DNA from: Oscillibacter sp.
GTDB taxonomy: Bacteria > Bacillota > Clostridia > Oscillospirales > Oscillospiraceae
Direction of reading: 5' to 3'
DNA length: 61,528 nucleotides
Assembly (NCBI GenBank): GCA_017526785.1
Contig: JAFXQV010000017.1
Coordinates: forward strand, 1 to 61,528
In this document: positions 2,194 through 54,091 of the stretch, in pieces
Layout: the number at the start of each line of letters is the position of its first letter
Position numbering within the stretch: position 1 is the stretch's first letter
Notes under the pieces: model-generated
What the model was told of the DNA's origin: nothing
The model's input: the letters and a program-made list of their open reading frames with translations, nothing else
The model's database searches: none
Made by a program: the position numbers and the translations under genes

Positions 2194-2260
2194 GCTCGCC
2201 CCGCTTTCGTCCCGGCGTCGCGGAGACGGGACGCCTTTGGCGCGCCGCCCCCGCGAACGC

Positions 2261-2470
2261 TTACGCCTCTTTCCGGTTGGCTTCCTCGTTGACAAGCTCC
2301 ACCAGCTTGTCAACGTCGATTCCGTGCACGTAGCAGGCTTCCTCCACGGTCTCGCCCCGCGACGCCGGACAGCCTAAGCAGTGCATACCAATCGACATGA
2401 AAATGGGCGCGGTCTGCGGCGCGATGTCCAGAATGTCGCCGATGACCGTGTCTTTCGTGATGTTCACCAT
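2261..2470 (-). CDS. DUF1858 small disulfide/redox-domain protein
   Basis: A 69-residue protein matching the DUF1858 family (hybrid-cluster-protein-associated redox disulfide domain): MVNITKDTVIGDILDIAP at the N-terminus and the CLGCPAS motif at the middle, whose two cysteines are the putative redox pair. Members are soluble and small, and their biochemical role is poorly known. The gene has its own promoter just upstream (2512-2540) and probably leads the trmK-nif3-yebC transcript. The ATG is preceded by GGAGG. Confidence 0.88.
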   Translation of the reverse strand: MVNITKDTVIGDILDIAPQTAPIFMSIGMHCLGCPASRGETVEEACYVHGIDVDKLVELVNEEANRKEA

Positions 2471-2505
2471 AAGATTTCCTCCGCTTGTTCAAATTTTCTC
2501 GGAAC

Positions 2506-2540
2506 GGGGCTATTATAGCCCCTTCCCGCCCCTAATTCAA
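2506..2540 (-). promoter_or_regulatory. Sigma-A-type promoter with palindrome over the -10 (DUF1858 gene)
   Basis: On the minus strand TTGAAT (2540-2535) and TATAAT (2517-2512) are 17 bases apart. The -10 sits inside a perfect 17-bp inverted repeat, GGGGCTATAATAGCCCC (2506-2522), which could be an operator or a start-site hairpin. Assignment is by sequence pattern. Confidence 0.6.
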
Positions 2541-2553
2541 TAGGCTTTCTTTC

Positions 2554-2581
2554 AACCCTCCCGCCCCATAAGGGCGGGACA
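2554..2581. other. GC-rich intergenic hairpin
   Basis: An inverted repeat TCCCGCCC...GGGCGGGA lies directly after the stop of the DUF815 ATPase gene. It lacks a clear U-tract in the minus direction, so its role as a terminator is uncertain. Similar hairpins occur between other genes of this window. Confidence 0.4.
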
Positions 2582-3823
2582 TTATTGCAACACGCCCGCC
2601 TTGCAGAGCTCAATATACTGTTTCGCCACTCTCGCGCTCCGCCCCCCGGCGCGGATTGCGAACGCCTCCGCCCTTACGGAAAGCTCCGTTTCGCCCAGCG
2701 CCACGCCGTACTGCTCCGCCAGCTTGCGCACAATGTACAGGTACCGCTCCTTGTCCGGGACGCCGAACGTCACCGTCAGCCCGAACCGCGCCGAAAGGCT
2801 CATCAGCTCCTGCCGCGTGTCCGACGCGTGGATGTCGTCGCCCTCGCGGTCGGAAAGCGTCTCTTTGATAAGGTGCCTGCGGTTGCTCGTCGCGTACACC
2901 GCCGCGTTTCCGGCGCGCCCGCCCACGCTCCCTTCCAGTATCGCTTTGAGCGCGGCAAAGTTGTCGTCGTTGACGGTAAAGCTCAGGTCGTCAATGAAAA
3001 TCAGGAACTTTAGCGGGTTGTCGGAAAGCGTCTCCATCAGTCCGGGCAGTTCGTAAAGCTGGTTCTTTTTCACTTCCACCAGACGCAGGCCGCGCCCCGC
3101 GTACTCGTTGGCAAGGGCTTTCACCGTACTGGATTTTCCCGTCCCCGCGTCGCCGTACAACAGGACGTTATTCGCGGGCTGTCCGTTCAACAACGCCTCC
3201 GTGTTGCTGATAATCTTCTCGCGCTCGCGCTCGTATCCGGGCAACTGTTCCAGCGTCTGCGGGTCGGGGCGCTTCACCGGGACAAGCTCCCCGTTATCCG
3301 ACAGCGTGAACGCCCGATAGCGGGCGAACAAGCCGTAGCCCGCCGTTCCCACGTTGCGCATACGCTCGCGGTACTCGGTGGGAATGTCCAGTTCGGACGT
3401 GAGCCAGCCCGTCATGAACAGCGGGACGCCGGGCAAGTCCGACAGTTTCAGGCGGGACAGGCGTTGCAGGAAATCAAGCTCCTTCTCCAGCGCGCCCGAC
3501 AGCGCCGCGTTCAGCGAACCGTTCCCGCATTGGCGGACACAGGCGTTTTCGCTCTCGGAAATCCTTTGGGACAGGTAGCGGCTCCAATCGCCGCCCGCCT
3601 CGAAAATCCGCGCCTCAAAGGACGCGATACGCCGTAAGAAGCGTTCCTGCCTCCCCTTTACGCATTCGCCCAGCGCGGCGGACAAGTCGCGGATTGCCGG
3701 GTCTTGCAACAAGTCGCGGAATACAACCAGCGTGTCCAAACGGCGGCGCAAGTCCAGCGCCGCCGCCATAGCCGCCGCGTCCCCGGCGGGACGCGGCGCG
3801 TTCGCGGCAACTTCCCCGCCCAT
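2582..3823 (-). CDS. DUF815-family AAA+ ATPase
   Basis: A 413-residue P-loop ATPase. A helical N-terminal half of about 190 residues is followed by a Walker A motif GDAGTGKS (residues 224-231) and a Walker B FLIFIDDL (about 273-280), then sensor motifs, as in DUF815 proteins. These are cytoplasmic AAA+ proteins with no established function in bacteria. The ATG overlaps the ilvD stop by one base (TGATG), so translation is probably coupled to ilvD. The pairing with ilvD looks positional and not functional. Confidence 0.85.
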   Translation of the reverse strand: MGGEVAANAPRPAGDAAAMAAALDLRRRLDTLVVFRDLLQDPAIRDLSAALGECVKGRQERFLRRIASFEARIFEAGGDWSRYLSQRISESENACVRQCGNGSLNAALSGALEKELDFLQRLSRLKLSDLPGVPLFMTGWLTSELDIPTEYRERMRNVGTAGYGLFARYRAFTLSDNGELVPVKRPDPQTLEQLPGYEREREKIISNTEALLNGQPANNVLLYGDAGTGKSSTVKALANEYAGRGLRLVEVKKNQLYELPGLMETLSDNPLKFLIFIDDLSFTVNDDNFAALKAILEGSVGGRAGNAAVYATSNRRHLIKETLSDREGDDIHASDTRQELMSLSARFGLTVTFGVPDKERYLYIVRKLAEQYGVALGETELSVRAEAFAIRAGGRSARVAKQYIELCKAGVLQ

Positions 3824-5481
3824 CAGCGCAACACCGCGCCTTCGTCGGCGCTCGACACCATGCGGGCGTAACGGGCAAGCCAGCCGGAAGTAACCTTCGG
3901 CTCCGGCTGTTTGTACTCCGCCCTGCGCCTCGCCAACTCGTCCTCGCCCACCAAAAGCGTAACGGACGCGTTCGGGATGTCAATGGCGATTTGGTCGCCC
4001 TCTTTCACAAGCCCGATGGGGCCGCCCGACGCCGCTTCCGGGCTGACATGCCCGATAGACGCGCCCCGGCTCGCCCCGGAGAACCGCCCGTCCGTGATAA
4101 GCGCCACCGTCTTGTCCAGCTTCATGCCCGCAAGCGCGGAAGTCGGGTTCAGCATTTCCCGCATTCCGGGGCCGCCCTTGGGCCCTTCGTAACGAATCAC
4201 AACCACGTCGCCGGGGACAATCTTCCCGGCGTAAATGGCGGCGATAGCGTCCTCTTCGCTGTCGAACACCCGCGCCGGGCCCGTGTGCGCCTGCATTTCC
4301 GGTGCCACCGCGCTACGCTTGACTACGCAACCGTTCGGCGCGATGTTGCCCCACAGGATTTGCAAGCCGCCCGTCTCGCTGTACGGCTCCTCGACGGGGC
4401 GGATGGCGTTATGGTTGCGGTTGGCGGCGCCTTTGATATTCTCGCCGACCGTATGCCCCGTGACGGTCATGCAGTCCAAGTCCAGCAGGTTCTTTTTCGC
4501 CAGTTCCGACTGCACCGCCGCGACGCCGCCCGCGTTGTAGAGGTCGGGCATATGCGTCGGGCCCGCCGGGGCGAGGTGGCACAGATTCGGCGTCCGGGCG
4601 GAAATCTCGTTGAACAGCTTCAAATCCAACTCAACGCCCGCCTCGTGCGCGATTGCAAGCAAATGCAGAACCGTGTTTGTCGAACAGCCAAGCGCCATGT
4701 CGCAGGTCAGGGCGTTGCGGATACTCCGCTCGTTGATAATGTCGCGGGCGGTGATATTGCGGCGCACCATTTCCATAATCGCCGCGCCGGACATGCGCCC
4801 CAGTTGCAGGCGACGGCTGTAGACGGCGGGAATCGTGCCGTTGCCGGGGAGCGCGATTCCAATCGCTTCGCACAGGCAGTTCATAGAGTTCGCCGTGTAC
4901 ATCCCCGAACAGCTCCCGCAACTCGGACAGCAGTTTTGCGTGCACTCCTCCAGTTGCGCGCCGTCAATCATGCCCGCCTTGTACGCGCCGACCGCCTCGA
5001 ACATCTTGGACAGGCTGACTTCCTCGCCGCCGTAAGTCCCCGCCATCATGGGGCCGCCGCTACATACCACGGCGGGCACGTCCATGCGAACCGCCGCCAT
5101 CACCATGCCGGGGACGATTTTGTCGCAGTTCGGAATTAAAACCATGCCGTCGAACTGGTGCGCCATGAACATGGTCTCCGTGCTGTCGCAGATTAACTCC
5201 CGGCTTGCGAGGGAATACTTCATCCCGATATGCCCCATGGCGATACCGTCGCAAACGCCGATAGCGGGCACCATGAACGGCGTGCCGCCCGCCGCCTCAA
5301 TGCCCGCCTTGACCGCGTCGGCGAGCTTGTCAAGGTTCATATGCCCCGGCACAATGTCGCTGTGGGCGCTCACAACCGCGATTAACGGTTTTTCCAAATC
5401 CTGTTGCGTATAGCCCAGAGCGTAAAACAGGCTCCGGTTCGGGGCGCGTTCCGCGCCTTTCGTCACGTTGTCGCTACGCAT
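3823..5481 (-). CDS. ilvD: Dihydroxy-acid dehydratase
   Basis: A 552-residue IlvD, the Fe-S enzyme that dehydrates 2,3-dihydroxy-isovalerate and -methylvalerate to the 2-keto acids of valine and isoleucine. Visible family motifs are [23 protein letters not shown] with a cluster cysteine, and [14 protein letters not shown]. The length is normal for the family. The ATG follows AAAGGAGA. The gene lies downstream of ilvC and a small secreted-protein gene on the same strand and is translationally joined to the DUF815 ATPase. As an oxygen-sensitive cluster enzyme it fits an anaerobe. Confidence 0.97.
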
Positions 5482-5509: not shown

Positions 5510-6016
5510 TCACGGGCGGCAGTTATTGCACGGCTCGTACCCCATGGAAACGACGGATTCTCTGGTTCCGCGATAATCCCTACGGTTCCTTGCGGAAATA
5601 GTCCCGGCGGAAGGGCAGGAGGCGTAATGAAATTTCATCGTGTTCGCGTTTAACACGAAATCGAGTTCCCCCACAGGGATAATTGCCGTCATTGCCCCGC
5701 ACAAAAGCGAAAAGGAATTTTCTTCCACAAAAACCGCCTTGACAAATTCCGCGCCGGAAATTTCCCGGTCAAAGCGGACGGTGGCGGTCTGAGCTTTTTC
5801 CCCGGCTCCGACGCCTTTCGATTTTACGCTCCGCATTTGAAGTGTTTGCGCGTCATAAACGCCTATCCAAAGAAGCCCGCCCTTCGGCGCGTTTAAACGT
5901 ACCGTAACCGTACCGCCTTCTTGTTTCGCGGAATAGACACAGGGGGCGTCGTCGGCTCCGTAAGCCCCGATTGTCAAAAACAGAATCGTCAAAAGCACGA
6001 CGGATAATTTTTTCAT
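5510..6016 (-). CDS. Small secreted protein with Cys-rich C-terminal motif
   Basis: 168 residues. A signal peptide ([20 protein letters not shown]) is followed by a beta-rich domain and a C-terminal segment reading [13 protein letters not shown]...[10 protein letters not shown]. The HxxxC...CxxC pattern resembles the metal-binding Ada-like tail found on many secreted nucleases and lipoproteins, so it may bind a metal. The N-terminal domain resembles that of the BspA-type protein at 58467-59885. The start chosen (6016) has AAGGA nine bases upstream and begins the signal peptide; the frame opens 8 codons earlier. Function unknown. Confidence 0.75.
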
Positions 6017-6056
6017 CAGAATATCCTTACTTGTTATCATTTGTTATCGGCGATGC

Positions 6057-6088
6057 AAAAGGAATCGCCGCCGGAAGCCCGACGGCGA
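6057..6088 (-). terminator. Intrinsic terminator after ilvC
   Basis: On the minus strand a 10-bp stem (TCGCCGTCGG / CCGGCGGCGA) with a 4-base loop is followed by TTCCTTTT. It lies just downstream of the ilvC stop and ahead of the small secreted-protein gene. Confidence 0.65.
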
Positions 6089-6103
6089 CTGTTCCGGCCT
6101 CGC

Positions 6104-7364
<1,261 letters not shown>

Positions 7365-7393
7365 GTGCGGCGTTGACGCGTTGGGCGGGTTGC

Positions 7394-7468
7394 GCAGGTG
7401 TAGCACAATGGTCAGGGCACCAGCCTTCCAAGCTGGGGATGCGAGTTCGATTCTCGTCACCTGCTCCA
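7394..7468 (+). tRNA. tRNA-Gly (TCC)
   Basis: A full cloverleaf with acceptor GCAGGTG/CACCTGC, anticodon stem CCAGC/GCTGG with loop CTTCCAA (anticodon TCC), a GTTCGATTC T-loop and an encoded CCA. First of five tRNAs. Confidence 0.96.
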
Positions 7469-7473
7469 AATCC

Positions 7474-7550
7474 GCGCCAGTAGCTCATCCGGATAGAGCA
7501 ACTGCCTTCTAAGCAGTAGGTGGGGGGTTCGAGTCCCTTCTGGCGTACCA
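7474..7550 (+). tRNA. tRNA-Arg (TCT)
   Basis: Acceptor GCGCCAG/CTGGCGT, anticodon stem ACTGC/GCAGT with loop CTTCTAA (anticodon TCT), T-loop GTTCGAGTC, discriminator A and an encoded CCA. Confidence 0.96.
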
Positions 7551-7584
7551 TTCCTTTCGGAACGCTTCAAAGCGTCGCGCATAT

Positions 7585-7661
7585 GGTGGGTGTAGTTCAA
7601 CTGGCAGAGCACCGGATTGTGGTTCCGGGCGTTGTGGGTTCAAGTCCCATCACCCACCCCA
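7585..7661 (+). tRNA. tRNA-His (GTG)
   Basis: Acceptor GTGGGTG/CACCCAC with an extra 5' G facing C73, the histidine identity pair. Anticodon stem CCGGA/TCCGG with loop TTGTGGT (anticodon GTG). CCA is encoded. Confidence 0.96.
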
Positions 7662-7748
7662 CAGAAAGCCGGGGAGCAGGGAGCGTCCCTGTAATCCCCG
7701 CTTTCTTCTTTCCGACGCGTCCCCACAATGCCGGGAAGCGTTCCATAT

Positions 7749-7823
7749 TGGGGCGTAGCCAAGTGGTAAGGCAAGGGACTTTGACTCCCTCATCCGCTGG
7801 TTCGAGTCCAGCCGTCCCAGCCA
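7749..7823 (+). tRNA. tRNA-Gln (TTG)
   Basis: Acceptor TGGGGCG/CGTCCCA, anticodon stem AGGGA/TCCCT with loop CTTTGAC (anticodon TTG), discriminator G and an encoded CCA. Confidence 0.95.
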
Positions 7824-7837
7824 TTGTCATATTGTTC

Positions 7838-7913
7838 GATTCGGTAGCTCAGTCGGCAGAGCAACTGCCTTTTAAGCAGTGGGTCCGGGGTTCGAATCCC
7901 CGCCGAGTCACCA
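7838..7913 (+). tRNA. tRNA-Lys (TTT)
   Basis: Acceptor GATTCGG/CCGAGTC, anticodon stem ACTGC/GCAGT with loop CTTTTAA (anticodon TTT), T-loop GTTCGAATC, discriminator A and an encoded CCA. Last gene of the cluster. Confidence 0.96.
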
Positions 7914-8030
7914 GAACGTCACCGGAAACCGTCACAAAGCGCGGTTTCCGGTCATTATTATCGCACAAATCGCCGCAAATGGGGAGGTTTTTCTGTTCTC
8001 TTTTTTCTCTCGTCAGAGCTGTTCGGCCGA

Positions 8031-8660
8031 CTATCTCCGCCGCGTGACGTACAGCGCGGCGGAATACGCTATCGGCACGGCCGCAAGCAGGGTTGTCACG
8101 CCGATAAATACGTACATCTGTCCGAACCGCACAAAGGCGTCCACAATCATCACAAGGCCGCCCGCCACCCACAGCGCCCCCGCCACGCGGTGCGTACGGT
8201 TCCAGTTGTCCTCGTCGGAGAGCGTCCACGGGAGCTTGATACCGACCGTGTAATTTTGCCGGCACTTGGGCAGGTAGTTCCCCACGACCACGAACAGTAC
8301 CCCCGTCAGCAGCATGCCGGACAGCGTGATATCTACCGAGTACCCCAGCGCGTTCGGGTACACCATCGCCGCCGCGAACAGCGACACCGCCGGACATATC
8401 CAGAGTACCAGAGCGCGTATTTTGCCGCTGACGTTCCCGGCCTTCGGGTCGTGGAACACGGCAAAGGCACAAGTCAAATGCACCGCCAGCAGAAACAGCG
8501 GCAGTCCGAACACCGCGAACGCCCTGCCGCTCCAGCCGTCGGGCGTGCCGGAGAAATCAAAATGCGTCGGGACGCGTTCCGGCAGTCGCCCCCAGAGCGT
8601 GATTCCCGCGCACACCGGAAGCAGTACACAGACAGATGTCAGCAGAAGATTACGTTTCAT
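8031..8660 (-). CDS. SdpI-family (DUF1648) integral membrane protein
   Basis: 209 residues with about six hydrophobic segments. The N-terminal DUF1648 pattern is clear (a membrane helix, then RLPERVPTHFDFSGTPDGW), and the C-terminal half has the SdpI motif GNYLPKCRQNYTVGIKLPWTL with NWNRTHR after it. In Bacillus subtilis SdpI gives immunity to the cannibalism toxin SdpC and sequesters the repressor SdpR. The gene overlaps the ArsR-type regulator by 11 bases, as in sdpR-sdpI operons. No SdpC-like toxin gene is visible nearby, so the signal sensed here is unknown. Confidence 0.88.
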   Translation of the reverse strand: MKRNLLLTSVCVLLPVCAGITLWGRLPERVPTHFDFSGTPDGWSGRAFAVFGLPLFLLAVHLTCAFAVFHDPKAGNVSGKIRALVLWICPAVSLFAAAMVYPNALGYSVDITLSGMLLTGVLFVVVGNYLPKCRQNYTVGIKLPWTLSDEDNWNRTHRVAGALWVAGGLVMIVDAFVRFGQMYVFIGVTTLLAAVPIAYSAALYVTRRR

Positions 8661-21244: not shown

Positions 21245-22570
21245 TTGTTATTGGAATTTAAAGCCCGGAATTACAAATCTTTCAAGGACGAACTCTGCCT
21301 TTCGATGATTCCCGACCCGGACGAGACCGCCCTTGATTACAGCGTCATGACGGAACATGTCGCCGGGGAGACGTTGCAAGCGTTATGCTCCACGGTGGTT
21401 TACGGCTCCAACGCCTCCGGGAAAACCAACGTCATCAGCGCTCTGGACACGTTCCGCCGCGTTGTCCTGCGGGGCAATATTGACAACGCCGAAAACGGTC
21501 CCAGTGGTAATCTCGCCTCTTTTACACTGGAACTGATTCCTAACAATGCAATCGAACTACCGCAACCAGTAGAATTTTCTATTCGCTTTTTTACAAACGG
21601 TGTACTGATTGATTACGCTTTTTCTGCTGATTTAGGAGAGTTTTCCCAGACAGATTATGACCGAAAAGTTTTATCTGAAAGTCTGTCTGTCAATGAGATT
21701 CCTATTTTCATGAGGACAGATGGCGTAACAACGAACGCTGATTCCTTAAAGCAATTCCCTGAATTTTTTAAGGAAAATATCCTCGCTAATCTGGACGCAA
21801 TCCGTATTTTGCCCGGATGGAATGTTGAACGACAGCAACTCTTTTTGTGTAACGGCTTCTCGTCATTGCTTAGTCCTGAGTTGCATAAACTCATTGCGGA
21901 ATGGCTATCAAAACAGTTAAAGGCTTTCTGCCGTTCTGATGCACTCTCTATTGTAATGAGTGTAATGGATATTGGCAACAGTTTATCTAAAGCCGACGAA
22001 ATAATAAATGATGCCATTTCACATATTGGCGCTCATAATCGCATTGGTTATATTTATAACTCGCGGGAAAAACGGATGCGTCTTGCCTCTATAATACAGC
22101 GAAATTCCAAGAATATAGCTATACCGGCAGAGATATTGGAATCATATGGAACCTATAGGTTTGCTAATCTGTTTCCACTCTTGCTAATTGCGTTTTTTAC
22201 CGGCTCCACACTTGTCCTTGACGAGTTCGACGCGTCGTTACACCCGATGGTTCTAATGAACATTATCAGCCTCTTTCATAACCCCGAAATTAACCGCAAC
22301 CACGCGCAGTTGATTTTCAACACGCACAACCCGATTTTCTTAGACCGTTCCCTGTTCCGGCGCGACGAAATCAAGTTTGTGGAACGCGACGAAGAAACGC
22401 AGTCCAGCGAAATTTACGCGCTGTCCGACTTTGAACCCGAACGGGATTGCGAGGACTATTTGGGGAATTACTTCCGTGACCGTTACGGCGCGATTCAGTA
22501 CGTGGACTTGACCCCGGTTTTCCGTAAGATTATGGCACCGGACAGCGACGAAGAATCGGGGGAGGCGTAA
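21245..22570 (+). CDS. AAA ATPase of an AbiL/RloA-like defence pair
   Basis: 441 residues from a TTG start (GGAGG nine bases upstream). N-terminal LLEFKARNYKSFKDE and Walker A GSNASGKT (residues 54-61) mark the SMC/OLD-like ATPase fold. TLVLDEFDASLHP (about 321-333) holds the Walker B acidic residues, and FNTHNP (about 358-363) the switch His. Paired with a downstream RloB-type gene six bases away, this is the architecture of AbiLi/AbiLii or RloA/RloB abortive-infection modules. The central part (about 21530-22190) is clearly AT-richer than both ends, so the variable core may have a different origin. Confidence 0.85.
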   Translation: MLLEFKARNYKSFKDELCLSMIPDPDETALDYSVMTEHVAGETLQALCSTVVYGSNASGKTNVISALDTFRRVVLRGNIDNAENGPSGNLASFTLELIPNNAIELPQPVEFSIRFFTNGVLIDYAFSADLGEFSQTDYDRKVLSESLSVNEIPIFMRTDGVTTNADSLKQFPEFFKENILANLDAIRILPGWNVERQQLFLCNGFSSLLSPELHKLIAEWLSKQLKAFCRSDALSIVMSVMDIGNSLSKADEIINDAISHIGAHNRIGYIYNSREKRMRLASIIQRNSKNIAIPAEILESYGTYRFANLFPLLLIAFFTGSTLVLDEFDASLHPMVLMNIISLFHNPEINRNHAQLIFNTHNPIFLDRSLFRRDEIKFVERDEETQSSEIYALSDFEPERDCEDYLGNYFRDRYGAIQYVDLTPVFRKIMAPDSDEESGEA

Positions 22571-22575
22571 CGGAC

Positions 22576-23289
22576 ATGGCACAGAAGAAAAAAACGAAGA
22601 GACCCGCCAATGAGAACACGTTTTACTTTTCCGTGGAGGGCGAGACGGAGCAATGGTATCTGGAACATCTGCGAACGCTGGTCAATGACGAACTGAAACG
22701 GCAAGGGGCGGGGTTCCGTATTGGCATGTCGATTCAGGTTCAGAAAGACCCGCGCCAAATTCCGTGGCCGTTCATTACCAGAGGAGAACATGTGAACGTT
22801 GTGCATGTGTGCGACTACGAATCCCCGGTGCCGCAACAGGCGGGCATGAACCGTCTGGAACAGTTCAAGGCCATCTTAGACAATCTGTCAGCGGCGGCAG
22901 AAGACAAGAATCTGACATATTTGCTTGGCTACAGCAACCTGTCTTTTGAACTGTGGATGATTCTGCACAAACAGCCCTGCAACGGCGGGAAAATTAACTG
23001 CAAGCAGTATGTGACGGACTTAAACACGGCTTACGCATCGTCGTTTCCCTCGGCAAAGGCCTGCAAGAAAGAAGACGCTTTCAAGGACTTGTTGCGGGGA
23101 ATCACGCTTTCGGATGTCCACGACGCCATAACACGAGCAACCGCCATTCAGGCGGTCAACACCAACCAAAAGGCGCAAGCGCAGAGACACCGTGATTACG
23201 AGTTTTACACGAATAATCCGGCGCTTTCGATTCATGAACGCGTACAGGATATTTTCACATTCTGTGCCAGCAGAGGCTTTTCCGTGTAA
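22576..23289 (+). CDS. RloB-family protein (AbiLii-like)
   Basis: 237 residues. The N-terminal FYFSVEGETEQWYLEHL (E21, E23, E25) is the acidic motif of RloB-like proteins, related to the TOPRIM-style acidic motifs of nucleases. Later LLGYSNLSFELWMILHK matches the conserved SNPCFE-type block of the family. It is thought to be the effector partner of the ATPase. The gene starts six bases after the ATPase stop with a modest Shine-Dalgarno (GGAGG inside the ATPase end) and ends before a strong terminator, so the pair is a closed two-gene operon. Confidence 0.85.
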   Translation: MAQKKKTKRPANENTFYFSVEGETEQWYLEHLRTLVNDELKRQGAGFRIGMSIQVQKDPRQIPWPFITRGEHVNVVHVCDYESPVPQQAGMNRLEQFKAILDNLSAAAEDKNLTYLLGYSNLSFELWMILHKQPCNGGKINCKQYVTDLNTAYASSFPSAKACKKEDAFKDLLRGITLSDVHDAITRATAIQAVNTNQKAQAQRHRDYEFYTNNPALSIHERVQDIFTFCASRGFSV

Positions 23290-46844: not shown

Positions 46845-46880
46845 AGCAAAACGCCCTCTCTCGGTACCGGGGGAGGGCGT
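46845..46880 (-). terminator. Terminator of the YcdB/SLH gene
   Basis: On the minus strand CGCCCTCCCCCGGTACCGAGAGAGGGCG, imperfectly paired, then TTTTGC. Confidence 0.75.
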
Positions 46881-46889
46881 CGCGTCGGT

Positions 46890-49124
46890 TCAGATTTCGC
46901 GCTCCATCATGCGGCAGAGCATGACGGCGGCGGTGCCACGGCGTACGGTCTCTTTGGCGTTGTAGGTTCCCTGTACGACGCCCAGACCTTGCGCGAGTGC
47001 CGCGTAGCCGATATCCGGCGCGGCAATGCTGTCTTTGTCGGCATAGTCACAAGTGAAGATTCCGTTGAGGTTCGCCACGGCCTTGTAGCCGCCGCAGTCC
47101 AACAGCAGTTTCACGAGTTCGCCGCGTGTCATAACCGCGTCCTCGTGACGTTCGCCGGGGGTCAGGCCGCCCATGCTGTAGACCATGCCGTAGACGTTGT
47201 TCTTCTCCTCGTCGGTCACGTCGTCGGGGTTGAGCCGCCAGCCGCGCGTGGAGGCAATCAGGCATACGGCGTCCCACTGCGTGAGGCTGACGTTCGGGCG
47301 GAACTCCCCGCCAGTGTAGCCGACACTGTAGGCGGCAAGTTTCCGGATTTCGGGGGCGGCCTCCGCGCCGTCGATGTCGGAATAGACAATTTCATTGTCC
47401 ACGGCCTCGGGGGCGACGGGCTTTCCGGTTTTGGCGTCAATGCCGGGGTAATTCTCCTCGCGTTCCAGCCCGTAACTCAAAAACAGAATCTGGAAGCGTT
47501 CGTAGCCCAGTGTGACAAGTTTCGCCTCGATATCGCCGCCCGTCAGCGGGTCGAGCTTGCGGGACTTGCTCCGGTAGCCTAACGTTACGGTATACGTGTC
47601 CATCCACGCGTCAATGGCGGCGTCCTTGGACACGAGATTTTCCGTGCCGTCGAAGTTCACCTTGTCGTCCCATGTGAACGACAGGCCGCAGACCGCGCCC
47701 GTGTCGGCGTCAACCTGAATGACGCAGTTGTTTTCCGGGAAAAAGTAGCCGTTTTCCTTGCGGGCGAACGTGAAGCCGTAGGACGGCGCGCCGTTGGCGG
47801 TCTCGTCGGACACGTCGTAGAGCGGCAGGGCGTCGGCGTGCTTGCTGTAGCGCGACAAGAACTCCTCGGCGATAGTCTGGGCGCGGGACTGCTTGACTTT
47901 CGGGACGCGGTCTTTGTTCCAGTTGCCGTAACTGTCCAGCGACTTGACCTCTCCGGTCTTGGCGTCGACGCGGAAAGTACGGTCGGCGCGGGTCACAATG
48001 CCTTTTTCGTTGACGGTGTTATCCCCGGTCGTGTAGCGAATCGTACAGAAAATGTCCTCGGTCTCGTCGGCGTTCTTGACAATGCGGTAGTTCGACGTTG
48101 CAATTTTATAGTTGTCCAACTGGTAGGCGCTCTCGGCACGGATACGGGCGTCAAGTGCTTCCGTGGACAGCACGTCTTTGAGTTTCTCGACGCCTGTCAG
48201 TTCCGTTTCGTTGAGTTGCTTCCGCGCCGACATGTTCGCGCCCCCGGCGTCCTCCATATCGGCGGCCGCTTCCGCCGTTGGCGCGGCTCCGCTGTAGTAG
48301 AAGTAGTCCTCGGCTCCGGTGAGTTCGCCTGACTGCGCGTCGACGTAACGCGCCTCGTAGTTGGACGGGACATAGCGTAAGACGGCGTGTTTGGTCTCCT
48401 TGGGGCGGTCGGCGTTGGCGGTGACGTACACCAATTCAAGGTCTAACGTGCCTTTGAGCTTGTCGGCGGCGTCGGACTGCTTCACGGCGGGCGTCGCGGA
48501 CGGAATGCCGCCTAAATAGCGCTGTGACGGCGCGTCGCGGTGGAAGTTCGTAATTTGATTGTCGCCGCCCCGGACGTTTATCGAGTACGACAGCGGGGAG
48601 GGCAGTCCGTTCAACTGAATCCGGCCGGAAAAGTACGCCGTGGTACTGTTCAACTGTCCGGCGGTCTGCGGCTCCTGTAACTCGACCGTTTCCACGGACG
48701 AATCCAGCACGCGGTCAAGAAACGCCCTCGCGGCGGACTTGGCGGCGGCCATGTCGAGTTTCGGGAACGTGGGAAGATAGGGGTTGTAGCGGTAGTTCTC
48801 CTGATTGTCGTTGTACCAGTAGGAGATAATGGTACCGTCGTCGAGCGCCTGAATGTTCATAGAGGCGTCGCTGCCCGACCAGTTCAGGTTCCACGCCACG
48901 CCCAGCTCTTCCTCGGACAGACTGCCGTTGAAGTCCGTGAACTTGTCGGTGTCAAGGTCGAGCGTACCCTTGACCAGTTCGGTGACGTTCTTAAGGCGTT
49001 CGTCCTGCGCGGCGGCGGAGGCCGGAAGCGGCTCCGTAACGGCGATTTCCGGCTCCGCGAACGCCGACATAACCCCGCCGACCGCCAGTGTCAGCCCCAG
49101 TAACAGGGAAATCCATCTTTTCAT
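46890..49124 (-). CDS. Secreted YcdB/YcdC-repeat protein with C-terminal SLH region
   Basis: 744 residues with a signal peptide (MKRWISLLLGLTLAVGGVMSAFA). Two PepSY-like YcdB/YcdC-type regions follow (about 40-280 and 330-560), each with a domain holding DAKTGEV or DAQSGEL near its end, typical of this family. The last 150 residues contain SLH-type segments (YSVGYTGGEFRPNVSLTQWDAVCLIA; YAALAQGLGVVQG) that would bind the cell wall. Function unknown; such proteins are common on clostridial surfaces. AAAAGGAGG precedes the ATG and a terminator follows. Confidence 0.82.
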   Translation of the reverse strand: MKRWISLLLGLTLAVGGVMSAFAEPEIAVTEPLPASAAAQDERLKNVTELVKGTLDLDTDKFTDFNGSLSEEELGVAWNLNWSGSDASMNIQALDDGTIISYWYNDNQENYRYNPYLPTFPKLDMAAAKSAARAFLDRVLDSSVETVELQEPQTAGQLNSTTAYFSGRIQLNGLPSPLSYSINVRGGDNQITNFHRDAPSQRYLGGIPSATPAVKQSDAADKLKGTLDLELVYVTANADRPKETKHAVLRYVPSNYEARYVDAQSGELTGAEDYFYYSGAAPTAEAAADMEDAGGANMSARKQLNETELTGVEKLKDVLSTEALDARIRAESAYQLDNYKIATSNYRIVKNADETEDIFCTIRYTTGDNTVNEKGIVTRADRTFRVDAKTGEVKSLDSYGNWNKDRVPKVKQSRAQTIAEEFLSRYSKHADALPLYDVSDETANGAPSYGFTFARKENGYFFPENNCVIQVDADTGAVCGLSFTWDDKVNFDGTENLVSKDAAIDAWMDTYTVTLGYRSKSRKLDPLTGGDIEAKLVTLGYERFQILFLSYGLEREENYPGIDAKTGKPVAPEAVDNEIVYSDIDGAEAAPEIRKLAAYSVGYTGGEFRPNVSLTQWDAVCLIASTRGWRLNPDDVTDEEKNNVYGMVYSMGGLTPGERHEDAVMTRGELVKLLLDCGGYKAVANLNGIFTCDYADKDSIAAPDIGYAALAQGLGVVQGTYNAKETVRRGTAAVMLCRMMEREI

Positions 49125-49247
49125 GGGGAATCCTCCTTTTTATTGTGTGTGCCTCGGTGTTCTGTAGCTTTAGACGCTCCCGCCGTGAAAAGGTTCCCGC
49201 GTTTTTGAAAAGTTTCCGCCTGTGTGAAGTGGGGGCGATAGAGGGCA

Positions 49248-49274
49248 AAGCCCTCCCCCGCAAACGGGAGAGGG
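49248..49274. repeat. 27-bp hairpin repeat, left copy
   Basis: AAGCCCTCCCCCGCAAACGG (continued by GAGAGGG) forms a CCCTC.CCCG/CGGG.GAGGG hairpin. The same 27 bases occur at 52482-52508 in the same orientation, so the pair brackets the metallophosphoesterase-STAND gene. It can also act as a weak terminator. Confidence 0.9.
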
Positions 49275-49280
49275 TGCGCG

Positions 49281-52200
49281 TTATGTTGTTTCGAGATCCT
49301 GTAAGCGTTTCAGGCCTTGTGACGCTCCGTGGTGTTTGGGGTCTATGCGAAGAATTTGTTGATAGACCTGTTTAGCCTCTTGAAGTCTGCGGGTACCTTC
49401 CAACAACATCCCTAATTCGTGAAGTGGCGGGATATTCTGCGGGTCAATGGCTACCGCTTCCCGGAACAGCTTTTCCGCCTCCGCCTTGTTGCCTCGTATA
49501 ACCAGCAGTCTGCCTAACTCCGTGCGGGCATGGATGTTGTACTCGTCCAAGAAGAGAATTTCCCGGAACAGGTGTTCCGCTTCCAGCAACGCCGCTTTAT
49601 CCGTTACGCGTCTGCTCAGCAGTTTGCCCAATTCCGTACGGGATGGGATATCTTCCCGATTTTTGTTTAGTTCTTTTCGGAATTTATCTTCCGCTTCGTA
49701 CTCTCTGTCGTTGTTAGAGAGCCACTTTCCCCATTCCGTATAGAGGATAGCTGTCGACTTACTGCTGTCCGCATCGGGCGCGGTATCTTTCAGCATATTG
49801 TGAATGTCCTCATCCCACCGGGTGATTCTGTCCCCGCCGTTCGACCACAAAAGGCCAAGACACAGGTCAATCCGTCCCGGTTTCGATAAGTTAAAATTGG
49901 GGTCTTGTTGCATGCGTTTATACACACGCTCCATATAGGCGCGATAGTTGATACGCCCAATGTCGCGTTGCTTTAACTGCCGCATATTCTCCCGGTTGAC
50001 CATGTTATGAAACAGACGTTCAATTTCTGTTTCCGACATGATATCCAGATAGCGTGATATTGAGAAGTCAATGGAACTTTCGTCGTAGAACTCGTCCTCA
50101 TCCTTACGAAAAAGGAAGAACAACTCGGCAATCACGTCATGTTTCGGCTCCAAGGTTCCGTCGGAGTCCGTATAAATGACGGGTTCGATAGAGCCGGATT
50201 TTCTGGAAAGACGCCAGTTCCGAAGCAGGTTGATGAAATCCCACTCCTCCAAACCAAATTGGCGACAGAACAGCGATATAGGCAACGGACAGCCAAACAG
50301 ACTGAACGCCGCAATCCCGCCGTACAAGGCGAAATCATCGGCCGAGATGCTGTGATATTCACGAAGAACGCGTCCCCACTCCTCCCAGTCCAGAATGATA
50401 CTTCCCGATTTTGCCATATACCTCAGTTCGGGCAACAAGGCACGGTAAATCAGCTCCACTAAGCTGACATGAGGTCTGTTATACTGCTCCAATACCTCGT
50501 CGACCTTATTCGTTAAGATTTCTCCCTTTTGACGTGAAAGCACGCCGTTTGCTACATAGGATGCCGTGGTGTTCAAGAGCAGTCGTTTCCGGAAATACTC
50601 ATTTTCCGTGATGACAGCAGTCTGGTAATTGTTCAGCCTGAAAGACACCCGTGTATCGCCGGAACGCCGCAGTTCCACGATGTTGGCACCGTCGAACCAG
50701 TTGACGAGGCAACCTTCACGCGTCAGCGTTCTTAACCGTGCGCTCCGTTCGGCCATGAGAAGCTGTACATATCCGCCCTTTGTAGTTTTGTGACCCGCCC
50801 AGAGTGGTTGATGAAGCCACGCCTCGCGAAGCGTCTGTAACGCGTCCCGCCCCCACGCGGGCGAATCCAGACACAACAATACACGTTGCCCGCTTTCCAC
50901 CCATTGCGACAGCGTTTCCATAAAATTCCGCGCCTTGCCGCTGTCCATCTTTTGTTCCATCTGGGACAATTTCAGCCATACGGCCACGCCGCCCGACTGC
51001 GCCCAATGAATCGCCGTCATCAGCATGAGCGTGGTTTTGCCCATGCCGCCGTTCCCGGCGATGAGGACGGGACTGTGTTCCAAAAGTTCCGTGATATTCG
51101 TCACGTCTTTGTCCCTTGGAATCGCTTTTCCCGCCGCGAGTACCCGCAACATCACGCCGTAACTGTCGTTTACCCGATAGAACGCGCTTGTGTCGAGTTC
51201 CCTGCACTTCTCCCCTTGGTCTATCACTGTCTCCGCGTCCAAGAACTCCGCCGCGTCGTCCAGTCCCCAGCGTTCCGCCTGCTGCCGGAGTGTTTCCACA
51301 ACCGGCTTTTGGGGTTTTCCCAGTTTTCTTGGCTCTGTGCCGCTGGACGTTTCATAATAGGGGTGCTCTTTACCAATCTGGTCGAAGTCATGCGTTAAGC
51401 CGGGTCTCCAAAGATACAAAGCCCACTTGGCGTCGCTCATGTTCGACTTGTTCGGATTCCATGTGTGGAGAATCAAACCAAATTGGGAATCTTTGTCATG
51501 GTCATCACTGGAGCCTCGCGGTGCGCAGATAATGGGTAAGTCTTGGTTGCCCCCCAGTGTCATTCTGAAGTCATCGTAGCTGTTATTGGACTCATGGCGG
51601 TCTCCGCACAGGTACGCGCGGATATTTCCACGAGAAAACGCGCCTACCAGACCCTCACTCCACTGTCGGGTGTTCATATCGCGGATATGGTTGTGTCCCA
51701 GCGCGATACAGGGCAGTCTGCCCTCTAACAACTGGTCTTTGGACGATATGGCGGAAAGCACATCCGCCATCTGGTTTGTTTTTTCCGTGCCGTCGGCGAC
51801 CAATGTCGTGTTGAGGTGGAGCAGATGAAGCTGGTTACGCCATGTACGGACATGCACCTTGACCGGAAGCCGATGATTACACTCATCCTCGGTGTAGACA
51901 CCCATACCCTTCACAAAGTCCAGATACGTTCGGTAGCAGGAAAGCAACGTTTCCATGTATTCGTCGTAGGCATCTCCCGCTTGACTGAGTGCGGTGGGGG
52001 CTGTGGGGGCTGTGGAGGCTTCTCGCAGTGCCTTAATTACCATCTGTCTGCGAGTAGTCAGGGGTTTGCCTTGGTCTTCTTTAGGGTTTTTGTCGACATC
52101 GTGATTACCCGGAACCATGAAAACGTCCTTATACGGGTCACGAATCCCCATTTTCTTCCAGAGCTGAGGGATAAACTCTGCCGCCTTATGAAAGTCGTCA

Positions 52201-52370
52201 TCAGTCTTGAAATTACGGAAATCGCCGGTTAAAACCAGCAGTTTTTTCTTCTCTGGAATTTTTGCAAAGTGTTCCTCGGCAAATTGCAAAATAGTGTCTT
52301 TCAAGTTGGCGGCTCTGACGCTTTCCATCATGTGCAGGTCTGACAGGTGCAGAATGTGAATCTCGTCCAT
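49281..52370 (-). CDS. Metallophosphoesterase-STAND NTPase-TPR protein (candidate defence gene)
   Basis: 1029 residues. Residues 1-290 form a calcineurin-like phosphoesterase: SDLH (D11, H13), TGD (D50), PGNHD (N89, H90), LGHNH (H226, H228) and CGDRH (H259). Residues about 425-600 hold a P-loop NTPase with Walker A AGNGGMGKTTL (438-448) and Walker B RVLLCLDS (496-503), of the STAND/NACHT kind. A helical middle leads to three or four TPR-like repeats in the last 150 residues. This effector-switch-sensor order is that of NLR-like antiphage proteins. Base composition is AT-richer than its neighbours, and direct repeats flank it. The ATG follows GAAGGAGG. Confidence 0.85.
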   Translation of the reverse strand: MDEIHILHLSDLHMMESVRAANLKDTILQFAEEHFAKIPEKKKLLVLTGDFRNFKTDDDFHKAAEFIPQLWKKMGIRDPYKDVFMVPGNHDVDKNPKEDQGKPLTTRRQMVIKALREASTAPTAPTALSQAGDAYDEYMETLLSCYRTYLDFVKGMGVYTEDECNHRLPVKVHVRTWRNQLHLLHLNTTLVADGTEKTNQMADVLSAISSKDQLLEGRLPCIALGHNHIRDMNTRQWSEGLVGAFSRGNIRAYLCGDRHESNNSYDDFRMTLGGNQDLPIICAPRGSSDDHDKDSQFGLILHTWNPNKSNMSDAKWALYLWRPGLTHDFDQIGKEHPYYETSSGTEPRKLGKPQKPVVETLRQQAERWGLDDAAEFLDAETVIDQGEKCRELDTSAFYRVNDSYGVMLRVLAAGKAIPRDKDVTNITELLEHSPVLIAGNGGMGKTTLMLMTAIHWAQSGGVAVWLKLSQMEQKMDSGKARNFMETLSQWVESGQRVLLCLDSPAWGRDALQTLREAWLHQPLWAGHKTTKGGYVQLLMAERSARLRTLTREGCLVNWFDGANIVELRRSGDTRVSFRLNNYQTAVITENEYFRKRLLLNTTASYVANGVLSRQKGEILTNKVDEVLEQYNRPHVSLVELIYRALLPELRYMAKSGSIILDWEEWGRVLREYHSISADDFALYGGIAAFSLFGCPLPISLFCRQFGLEEWDFINLLRNWRLSRKSGSIEPVIYTDSDGTLEPKHDVIAELFFLFRKDEDEFYDESSIDFSISRYLDIMSETEIERLFHNMVNRENMRQLKQRDIGRINYRAYMERVYKRMQQDPNFNLSKPGRIDLCLGLLWSNGGDRITRWDEDIHNMLKDTAPDADSSKSTAILYTEWGKWLSNNDREYEAEDKFRKELNKNREDIPSRTELGKLLSRRVTDKAALLEAEHLFREILFLDEYNIHARTELGRLLVIRGNKAEAEKLFREAVAIDPQNIPPLHELGMLLEGTRRLQEAKQVYQQILRIDPKHHGASQGLKRLQDLETT

Positions 52371-52394
52371 AGAGTTGCCTCCTTCCTTTTAAAA

Positions 52395-52423
52395 ATTATA
52401 GCATGCAAAGCACCGGATTTCAA
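52395..52423 (-). promoter_or_regulatory. Promoter of the metallophosphoesterase-STAND gene
   Basis: On the minus strand TTGAAA (52423-52418), 17 bases, TATAAT (52400-52395), 25 bases before the ATG. Confidence 0.78.
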
Positions 52424-52481
52424 GGGTGTTTGACAAAAATGTGTTCAAATCTTACTTGGAAGCCCCGCCCGGTACGCCACG

Positions 52482-52508
52482 AAGCCCTCCCCCGCAAACG
52501 GGAGAGGG
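52482..52508. repeat. 27-bp hairpin repeat, right copy
   Basis: Identical to 49248-49274 over 27 bases. Here the stem is extended to CGAAGCCCTC/GAGGGCTTCG. It lies just after the lipoprotein stop codon. Confidence 0.9.
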
Positions 52509-52516
52509 CTTCGCGG

Positions 52517-54091
52517 TCAAATCGTGAGAGCGTTTTCCGGTTCGGTCATTTGTTCGCGTGTGATTTGCTGACGCTTTCCGGCTTTGCCGCCGCGTTGGCC
52601 TTGCCCGATTCCGGGCTGTGCCATGCCGCCTTGGCCTTGCCCGATTCCGGGCTGTGCCATGCCGCCTTGGCCTCGCCTGCCTCTGGGCTGTGCCATGCCG
52701 TCTTGGGTCTTATTGCCGCCTGTCTGGCCTTCACTGCCGCCGGATTGCGTCACGCCGTCTTGGCCTTGGTTCGGACGGTTGCCCTTGCCCGTGGCACCCG
52801 TCTGCGCGTCCGCGAAAGCGCGGTTTCTTCCGAAGCCGCCCCGGCCGCCCATGCCCATTTGATTGGGAATCGACGTGACTTTCTGGCCGTTTACAATCAC
52901 GGTTCCGCCCGTAAAGGTCACAGTCCCGTCAATGTCGAAGCCGGAATTCCCCGTAACGCTGACGGTTCCGCCCGTAATTATCAGGTTCCCGTTGGCGTCG
53001 ATACAGTCTGTGTCGCCCTGCCCGACGGCCACGGAGATGTCGCCGCCGTTGATTTCAATGGTGGGCGTGGCCGCGCCGGATTTCCGGGCGGCGTTGATTC
53101 CGTCGTCAGCGGCCTGTACCCGGATTGTGCCGTCATTGACGCGGATATAGTTGGCTTCCAGACCCTCGGCGGCGGTAACGTCCAGCGCGCCGCCGTCGAC
53201 TTGCAGGACGCCGGAGGCGGTCACGCCGTCGTCACTGGCGGAGATGGCCAGCGTCCCCCCGGCCAGATAGATGTTCCCTTTCGCGCTGTCCTCGCCGTTC
53301 TCCGCGTGGAGGCCGTCCTTGCCCGCTTTGAGCGTGAACGTGCCGCCGGCAACGGCGATTTCGTCTTTAGCGGATAAGGCGTGGCTGGCCGCCGTGACTT
53401 CGTACGTCCCGCCCGTAATGGTCAGTTCGTCCTTGCTGACAACGCCGTGTTTCGCGGGGGAGTTCACGACGAGTTTGCCGCCGCCGTTCAGGGTCAGGTC
53501 GTCTTTCGAGAAAACCGCGCCGTCCACGTTGTTTTCGTCGATAGTCTCAAACGCGCCACCGTTGGAGAGCGTATTTACCGTGCCGTCCGCGAGCGTGAGA
53601 AAGACCTTGTCCGCCTGCTTGACGTAAAGCGCGGCGAAGGTGCCGGAGGTAATGCTTGCGTTGTCCAGCACGATTTGGACTTTGTCCTCTTTTCCGGCGT
53701 CCACAATCAGGGAGCCGTTTTCGAGCGTACCCGTCACGCGGTACGTCCCGGCGGCGGTAATCGTGGCCAGAGCGCCGGAGACCGTCACCGCGCCGGAATT
53801 ACAGGCAATGGCGTCGCCGTTCAGCGCAATCAGGACGGCGGAGGCGGCGTCCCAAGTCCCGGACAAGTCCCGGTCGGAGAAGGCGTCGGCCGCCAACGTG
53901 CCGACATCCAGTGTCTGCGCCTGAAGCGTGCCGCCGCTGGCATCCAGTGTCCGCGACTGAAGCGCGCCGCCGCTGGTGCTAACATCCAGTGTCCGCGCGC
54001 CGCCGCTGGCGTCCGCCGACGCGCCGCAGGCGGACAGTGACAGCGCCGCCGTTAATACAAAAGCGGTGATTCCCGCCGCTGTTCGTTTCAT
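52517..54091 (-). CDS. Carbohydrate-binding (Cthe_2159-like) surface lipoprotein with repeats
   Basis: 524 residues. A lipoprotein signal ends in LSLSAC. Two short TLDxSxGG-type repeats follow (about 33-64). The core (about 80-390) is a right-handed beta-helix made of GGxxxIxAxDDG steps as in the Cthe_2159 carbohydrate-binding family. The C-terminal 130 residues are Gly/Gln/Met-rich with near-exact QGGMAQPGIGQG repeats. It probably sits on the membrane outer face and binds pectin-like glycans or metal ions. Both repeat regions are tandem at the DNA level (52600-52700 and 53925-54010) and could vary in copy number. AAAAGGAG precedes the ATG. Confidence 0.85.
   Translation of the reverse strand: MKRTAAGITAFVLTAALSLSACGASADASGGARTLDVSTSGGALQSRTLDASGGTLQAQTLDVGTLAADAFSDRDLSGTWDAASAVLIALNGDAIACNSGAVTVSGALATITAAGTYRVTGTLENGSLIVDAGKEDKVQIVLDNASITSGTFAALYVKQADKVFLTLADGTVNTLSNGGAFETIDENNVDGAVFSKDDLTLNGGGKLVVNSPAKHGVVSKDELTITGGTYEVTAASHALSAKDEIAVAGGTFTLKAGKDGLHAENGEDSAKGNIYLAGGTLAISASDDGVTASGVLQVDGGALDVTAAEGLEANYIRVNDGTIRVQAADDGINAARKSGAATPTIEINGGDISVAVGQGDTDCIDANGNLIITGGTVSVTGNSGFDIDGTVTFTGGTVIVNGQKVTSIPNQMGMGGRGGFGRNRAFADAQTGATGKGNRPNQGQDGVTQSGGSEGQTGGNKTQDGMAQPRGRRGQGGMAQPGIGQGQGGMAQPGIGQGQRGGKAGKRQQITREQMTEPENALTI

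Follow-up and report, generated by a model that had tools for sequence, protein, structure and literature searches.

A single-gene metallophosphoesterase-STAND-TPR protein of Oscillibacter sp. as a candidate NLR-type defence protein with an exchangeable effector

In DS-8, the nearest tested system to the protein described here, mutation of either the metallophosphatase or the NACHT part abolishes defence, and the authors leave the substrate of the metallophosphatase open; in DS-9 a metallophosphatase and a HAD phosphatase are encoded by two genes (available portion of PMC13092281). Calcineurin-superfamily effectors have further been described computationally in GAP1-N1, vWA/MoxR and TRADD-N conflict systems (available portions of PMC7159879 and PMC8195603). 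Within the literature searched, metallophosphatase, NACHT and anti-phage occurred together only in PMC13092281, and no metallophosphoesterase-nSTAND-TPR protein (TPR, tetratricopeptide repeat) was described in titles or abstract openings. Here we present such a protein, encoded by one gene on contig JAFXQV010000017.1 in the draft genome (2.34 Mb, 38 contigs) of a gut bacterium, Oscillibacter sp. The whole 61,528-nucleotide stretch is referred to as the window. We suggest, with a probability of about 0.7, that this is a solo NLR-type (STAND) defence protein with a swappable metallophosphoesterase (MPE) effector. The gene and the parts of its product are as follows.

49281..52370, minus strand: MPE-STAND-TPR gene, 1029 amino acids (open reading frame (ORF); Pfam Metallophos and TPR; orthologue in genome G402)
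51336..52370, minus strand: residues 1-345, calcineurin-like MPE of the LCGDxH variant (PF00149 match; motifs D11/H13, D50, N89/H90, H226, D257/H259)
49731..51302, minus strand: residues 357-880, STAND NTPase core and the helical region common to the relatives described below (36-41% identity to them)
49284..49730, minus strand: residues 881-1029, TPR array, probable sensor (Pfam TPR matches; AlphaFold2 pLDDT 80-95)

The ORF opens with ATG, and a GGAGG ribosome site stands immediately 5' of it as judged by eye. The first-pass annotation had joined a phosphoesterase, a STAND P-loop and TPRs in one chain, and the ORF bears this out. Pfam Metallophos (PF00149) covers residues 5-259 at 43.2 bits against a cut-off of 21.5, TPR families cover about residues 930-1013, and between them lie a Walker A motif, GNGGMGKT, at 439-446 (K445) and a Walker B-like LLCLD at 498-502. 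The N-terminal effector (5-259), central P-loop NTPase (439-446) and C-terminal repeats (930-1013) of NLR-like proteins are hence found on a single chain. All the metal motifs said to be visible were recovered, the last of them being GDxH where GHxH is usual. Metallophos and TPR exceed their cut-offs in the profile search, and STAND and NACHT models match below theirs, with nSTAND_NTPase5 and nSTAND3 falling within 428-549. The threshold of nSTAND_NTPase5 (PF25199) is 34 bits, and the window protein gives 21.5. Among relatives, L099 reaches the cut-off with 35.3 bits, L094 gives 25.5 and three copies in G402 give 20.9-25.6, so that the apparent kinship of the window protein to nSTAND_NTPase5 is indirect, by way of these relatives. 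Foldseek matches of the AlphaFold2 model are dominated by the TPRs, and include EfAvs5 (9jap, E 1.3e-5) and the STAND-TPR protein 6mfv (E 2.4e-5).

Further we investigated which proteins share the STAND-TPR part, here called the chassis. Alignment queries found relatives in the genome_contigs and viral_contigs sets where single-protein scans found none. A query built from the window protein and its G381 relative gave 13 loci in genome_contigs, and all 13 match only from query residue 357-389 onward; no MPE match was found in 14 chassis loci at E<=0.01. Altogether there are 19 chassis proteins: the 13 loci (L089 and L101 are the copies in G381 and G472, respectively, and enter the count a single time), three copies in G402, one in G457, one on viral contig L105 and the window protein itself, with TPR-only pieces left out. 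Sixteen carry a helical N-terminus, two an MPE (the window protein and one from G402, of the same genus) and one neither. It should be noted that this 16:2:1 tally is no census, as the scans, with two short chassis peptides each, were not exhaustive and missed the G402 copies. The helical N-terminal domain is about 180 residues long and was aligned in 11 of the 13 loci (L089-L100, alignment A4), with L091 and L101 judged by eye; N-termini outside this alignment, including those of G402:C9 and G457, were likewise sorted by eye. Conserved positions are G17, G20, S21, T24, D27, Y77, W78 and C81 in L099 numbering. No Pfam match over cut-off was seen for the domain in two tested proteins, and no clear fold match in the PDB. 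It is probably the usual effector or adaptor of the STAND-TPR chassis.

In a tree of 17 chassis proteins, which omits the interrupted L091 and L101, the two MPE forms group together (99/96) and then join the effector-less G402:C31 (100/100), for which the tool warns of a long branch. The TPR array also varies. By a strict pattern eight complete relatives have 4 to 8 units, mostly of 35 residues, and the window protein has 3; at the DNA level the most similar neighbouring units share 68-100% identity in the eight relatives and 57% in the window gene. As unit count varies and adjacent units are near-identical in some relatives, the number of repeats changes easily, which is as expected of a sensor and no proof of one. 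TPR arrays of this kind extend beyond STAND genes: the protein of G402:C56 (L122 5111-6100), in which no P-loop was seen, has such TPRs after a Gly/Ala-rich hydrophobic stretch.

The phosphoesterase, in turn, is found on other bodies. In a motif alignment of eight MPEs, window protein included, D11, H13, D50, N89, H90, H226 and H259 are invariant (8/8), and D257, which makes the LCGDxH motif, is present in seven; the eighth, L104, has GHxH. PADLOC model PDLC00736 (named Effector/Endonuclease) matches residues 7-268 at 62 bits. The subfamily was found on TPR-only proteins in G131 and G343 (both cut by contig ends), with a different C-terminus in G442, ahead of a P-loop in L137, and in L142, where a pattern scan, the sole scan of that locus, found no P-loop. 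A class sample searched with the MPE profile (E<=1e-25) gave 1 of 391 genomes, the window's own, and the MPE alone gave two weak matches in plasmid records. We tentatively consider that the LCGDxH phosphoesterases might form a distinct effector class with its own substrate, a module borne by several immune bodies that are unrelated (nSTAND5-like-TPR, TPR only, a P-loop/NACHT-like protein and others); we hold this possible, though short of an even chance. The Asp would here replace a metal-binding His and separate the LCGDxH enzymes from those of DS-8 and PDC-S60, which have GHxH. On this view the chassis that otherwise bears the unknown helical N-terminal domain would carry the module in the window protein and in the G402 orthologue.

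Matches to the whole protein are few. Own genome included, they occur in 4 of 400 family genomes (E<=1e-20), 2 of 394 order genomes (E<=1e-15) and 7 of 86 genus genomes (E<=1e-10); phage and plasmid records gave none at E<=1e-8, and plasmid records gave none for the chassis of L099 at E<=1e-10. Within the seven genus genomes the MPE-STAND form is present in our own and in G402, a chassis with another N-terminus in G381, G457 and G472, a TPR stretch at a contig end in G423, and an MPE relative only in G442. The G402 orthologue is located as follows.

L118 6150-8627: orthologue of the MPE-STAND-TPR gene in G402, running off contig C51

It aligns with residues 3-821 at 57% identity in the alignment, and the MPE motifs and Walker A are all conserved. 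The missing end seemingly lies on C28, judged by eye from a 47-residue overlap at the contig end, and the two pieces were not joined. The same genome holds three forms of the chassis: MPE (C51), effector-less (C31) and helical (C9). The gene is not a core gene, as the MPE-STAND form is confined to 2 of 86 genus genomes and its locus in G402 differs; for these two reasons we take the gene to be one that moves.

The first-pass annotation proposed an effector-switch-sensor order with the phosphoesterase as the likely effector. This NLR-like reading gains support because the chassis bears other N-termini, the MPE sits on other bodies, and some chassis genes have neighbours connected with defence or mobility. 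The neighbours of six loci were scanned because they looked interesting. L089 has the R, S and M genes of type I restriction, the last of them truncated where the locus ends, together with an HNH protein; HEC-01A (E 7e-167) and HEC-01B (8e-91) adjoin L091; a NACHT-like protein with pentapeptide repeats (2232-4964), which has no PADLOC match, lies about 2.6 kb off in L093; L097 has an AAA_21 protein as neighbour, L098 a recombinase fragment and L099 an integrase. On viral contig L105 the chassis gene (5551-8157) lies between genes for a single-stranded DNA-binding protein and for the terminase large subunit and portal, and the G402:C51 orthologue is near a serine recombinase. The known MPE-NTPase kind of protein occurs on viral contigs too: L104, an MPE-NACHT protein, is about 4 kb from a tail-fibre gene.

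The integrase, the recombinases and the viral contig also favour a selfish, inter-element role, in which the chassis would mainly serve phages and integrative elements by excluding rivals. We think this rather unlikely, as a viral contig accounts for one of the 19 chassis proteins found, and no recombinase was seen close by, by eye, in the other loci read or at the window copy. Such a role does not conflict with our preferred reading of the window protein as an NLR-type defence protein.

For that preferred reading we suggest the following mechanism, which leans on DS-8 for substrate, trigger, oligomerisation and a role in defence. At rest the STAND module would hold ADP and restrain the N-terminal phosphoesterase. 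The ligand of the C-terminal TPR array would be a product of phage infection, probably a protein of the phage. By analogy with characterised STAND proteins, nucleotide exchange would then lead to oligomerisation and bring several phosphoesterase domains together, and the activated metal centre would cleave phosphodiester bonds in nucleic acid or in a nucleotide messenger, with the cell or the phage halted as a result.

Several observations weigh against a defence protein of this kind. The window protein stays under the cut-off of each STAND, NACHT and AAA model listed, the AlphaFold2 model is of low confidence in the MPE region and speaks neither for nor against the MPE and STAND folds, and defence models match weakly outside the MPE, with mad8 at 427-461 (E 0.0068) and HyoA at 428-503 (18.5/1200 bits). 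The Walker B-like Asp502 is Asn in the G402:C51 orthologue, which may weaken ATP hydrolysis there. At L090, L092, L094, L095, L100 and L101 no adjacent gene with an evident link to defence was noticed by eye; this survey of neighbours leaves aside L096 (unread), L107, L119 and L120. The window gene itself has genes for a YcdB-repeat and a Cthe_2159-like protein on its two sides. As judged by eye, ilvB/ilvN lie further out, and the surroundings look like housekeeping genes and no defence island; the AbiL-like pair of the window is 26 kb away.

Such surroundings would suit a host signalling switch, in which a normal physiological signal, and not phage, would set the phosphoesterase to break down a cyclic nucleotide or to remove phosphate from a host target. 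According to the available portion of PMC7159879, work on the STAND proteins of bacteria has mainly dealt with them as transcriptional regulators. We consider a host switch improbable. The MPE-STAND form is sporadic in the genus, its N-terminus is swapped in relatives, chassis genes have restriction and HEC-01 genes as neighbours and occur on a viral contig, and the number of TPR units varies, some being near-identical.

Two other features of the window are given here. The promoter-like site should be seen against the four sites of 11/12 quality in the stretch, where 2.5 are expected, and we take the AbiL-like pair as a likely second defence locus.

52395..52423, minus strand: promoter-like site TTGAAA-17-TATAAT with TG ahead of the -10 (11/12 matches)
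21245-23289, plus strand: AbiL-like pair (PADLOC AbiLi E 8e-72, AbiLii E 1.6e-15; GC 0.46 and 0.51)

The first-pass annotation had also taken the stretch 49248..52508 to be a cassette between direct repeats, by whose recombination the gene comes or goes. The repeats in question, and a third near-copy, are as follows (from sequence; no strand assigned).

49248..49274: hairpin copy, 6 bp past the stop of the MPE-STAND-TPR gene
52482..52508: identical hairpin copy, 8 bp past the stop of the Cthe_2159-like upstream neighbour, 52517-54091
46854..46877: third near-copy, 12 bp past the stop of the YcdB-repeat gene 46890-49124

Part of this is correct. The two 27-bp repeats are identical (27/27), in the same orientation and 3234 bp apart from start to start, the 3.2 kb given before, and the gene is AT-richer than its surroundings, with 51.8% GC (GC at third codon positions, GC3, 0.615) against 60.7% (0.805) and 63.9% (0.761) in the genes on either side. 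These observations would favour a mobile cassette, inserted and excisable through the repeats. So would the finding that DNA similarity to relatives of the YcdB neighbour ends at 49217-49224, just short of the repeat, in three of the five closest (L047, L049, L050); in the other two it ends at 49149 and 49004. As gene order differs in the relatives read, the similarity may end there for reasons other than an insertion. Regarding this sample, the YcdB-repeat neighbour gave 38 matches in 86 genus genomes (E<=1e-30, own included), with 8 of the 37 others read; the Cthe_2159 neighbour gave 15 matches in 61 genomes (E<=1e-20, own included), with 10 of the 14 others read; and ilvB was found in 5 of 6 chosen relatives, all 5 read. 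The flanks of G424, G402, G458 and G416 were read for genes, and those of G407, G427, G457 and G423 by BLAST only. In the relatives read, the flanking genes were not adjacent, the other neighbours were not found at these YcdB, Cthe_2159 and ilvB loci, and no empty site with a single repeat copy could be read; as several of the contigs end nearby, such a site may nonetheless exist. The exception to the missing neighbours, near the Cthe_2159 gene in L027, is a match of 55 residues to the ilvB query, the frame of which was over-long.

The repeats are not specific to the ends of this gene, which argues against cassette borders. With up to three mismatches the 27-bp repeat has 3 matches in the window and 0 in 100 shuffles, and, with no more than two mismatches allowed, the hairpin family CCCTCYCCCG-N4-CGGGRGAGGG numbers 25 sites genome-wide, the reversed control giving 1. 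Scored against ORFs of at least 100 codons, 17 of the 25 lie within 20 bp past a stop codon (1.4% of random positions, 12.7% of random intergenic ones) and 21 within 70 bp (4.5% and 25.8%), while a single one lies within 20 bp ahead of a start, against 13.2% of random intergenic positions. The RNA of the three copies folds well, with z of -3.0, -7.0 and -2.2. The two repeats at our gene are thus 2 of 25 copies and a third stands by the next gene; a second exactly identical pair, of 24 bp, is found on two different contigs (C8 and C23). A hairpin of this kind, with a T run by eye, also stands 16 bp past the stop of the orthologue in G402, where the locus is a different one. Sites of the family in the window include 30429, 46854, 49251 and 52485, where no T run is seen by eye.

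Some points weaken this rejection. Eight of the 25 sites have no stop within 20 bp, seven fall, on one strand, within a further predicted ORF (which may be spurious), and the G402 hairpin was found by a looser, variable-loop pattern only, the stricter one giving none in L118-L121. Nevertheless, as the hairpins form a dispersed family mostly past stop codons, we reject the direct-repeat cassette and hold insertion and excision through the repeats very improbable. The best reading of the repeats is that of terminator-like or REP-like hairpins at gene ends, with the caveat that one hairpin may have been duplicated during arrival of the gene, as the flanks stay together in none of the relatives read. 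Repeats that flank an odd gene can thus be common hairpins of gene ends. We also observed tandem repeats of about 36 bp (52584-52768) in the 3' portion of the Cthe_2159-like gene, where they encode a Gly/Gln-rich tail.

If our reading of the protein as a solo defence protein is right, nature has made an effector-swap experiment, in which one sensor-switch chassis bears a phosphoesterase, a helical domain or no N-terminus, all three together in the one genome G402. It would then be possible to test what the metallophosphoesterase of NLR-like defence proteins cleaves, and whether an exchange of effector leaves the specificity for the trigger with the TPR chassis.

Compared with described systems, the window protein shares with DS-8 (NF053861 DS8_antiphage) an N-terminal MPE and a central P-loop NTPase in one protein. 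The MPEs are related in sequence, the model giving 60.6 bits with its best stretch at 8-316 and reporting a second stretch whose position is not shown; the cut-off is 790 bits and is not reached. By BLAST, the DS-8 member L132 (G1568, over cut-off) aligns with window residues 6-140 at 23%, and with 35 residues only at the P-loop (E 0.02). L132 has GHEH where the window protein has GDRH, and the window protein ends in TPRs, for which L132 was not scanned. Run on 398 phylum genomes (E<=1e-12), the DS-8 model matches 11, one of them over cut-off; the window's genome is among the 11 through its MPE, the only part of the protein matched in that scan. In 14 control genomes only Bacillus subtilis matches, under cut-off. 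To PDC-S60 (PDLC05051) the likeness is that residues 4-100 of the window MPE match the first 97 of 1027 profile positions; a match to the whole profile is lacking, whereas L104 matches almost full length (314.8 bits; 150 bits to the DS-8 model). DS-9 has a related MPE (37.2 bits, residues 5-103), but the window gene is a single one with STAND and TPR parts, and by eye no HAD phosphatase is adjacent.

The GAP1-N1, vWA/MoxR and TRADD-N systems likewise use a calcineurin-like phosphoesterase as an interchangeable effector module; an nSTAND5-like TPR chassis is not mentioned in the available portions of the two papers (PMC7159879, PMC8195603). With Avs/AVAST the protein shares the effector-STAND-TPR order and differs in having an MPE as effector. 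PADLOC gave three matches to the window protein at E<=1, none of them Avs, and as this is one library the protein may yet be a distant Avs. Because the DS-8 cut-off was failed and no Avs model matched, we file the protein under neither, while in its proposed manner of action it works like DS-8 and the Avs-type STAND proteins.

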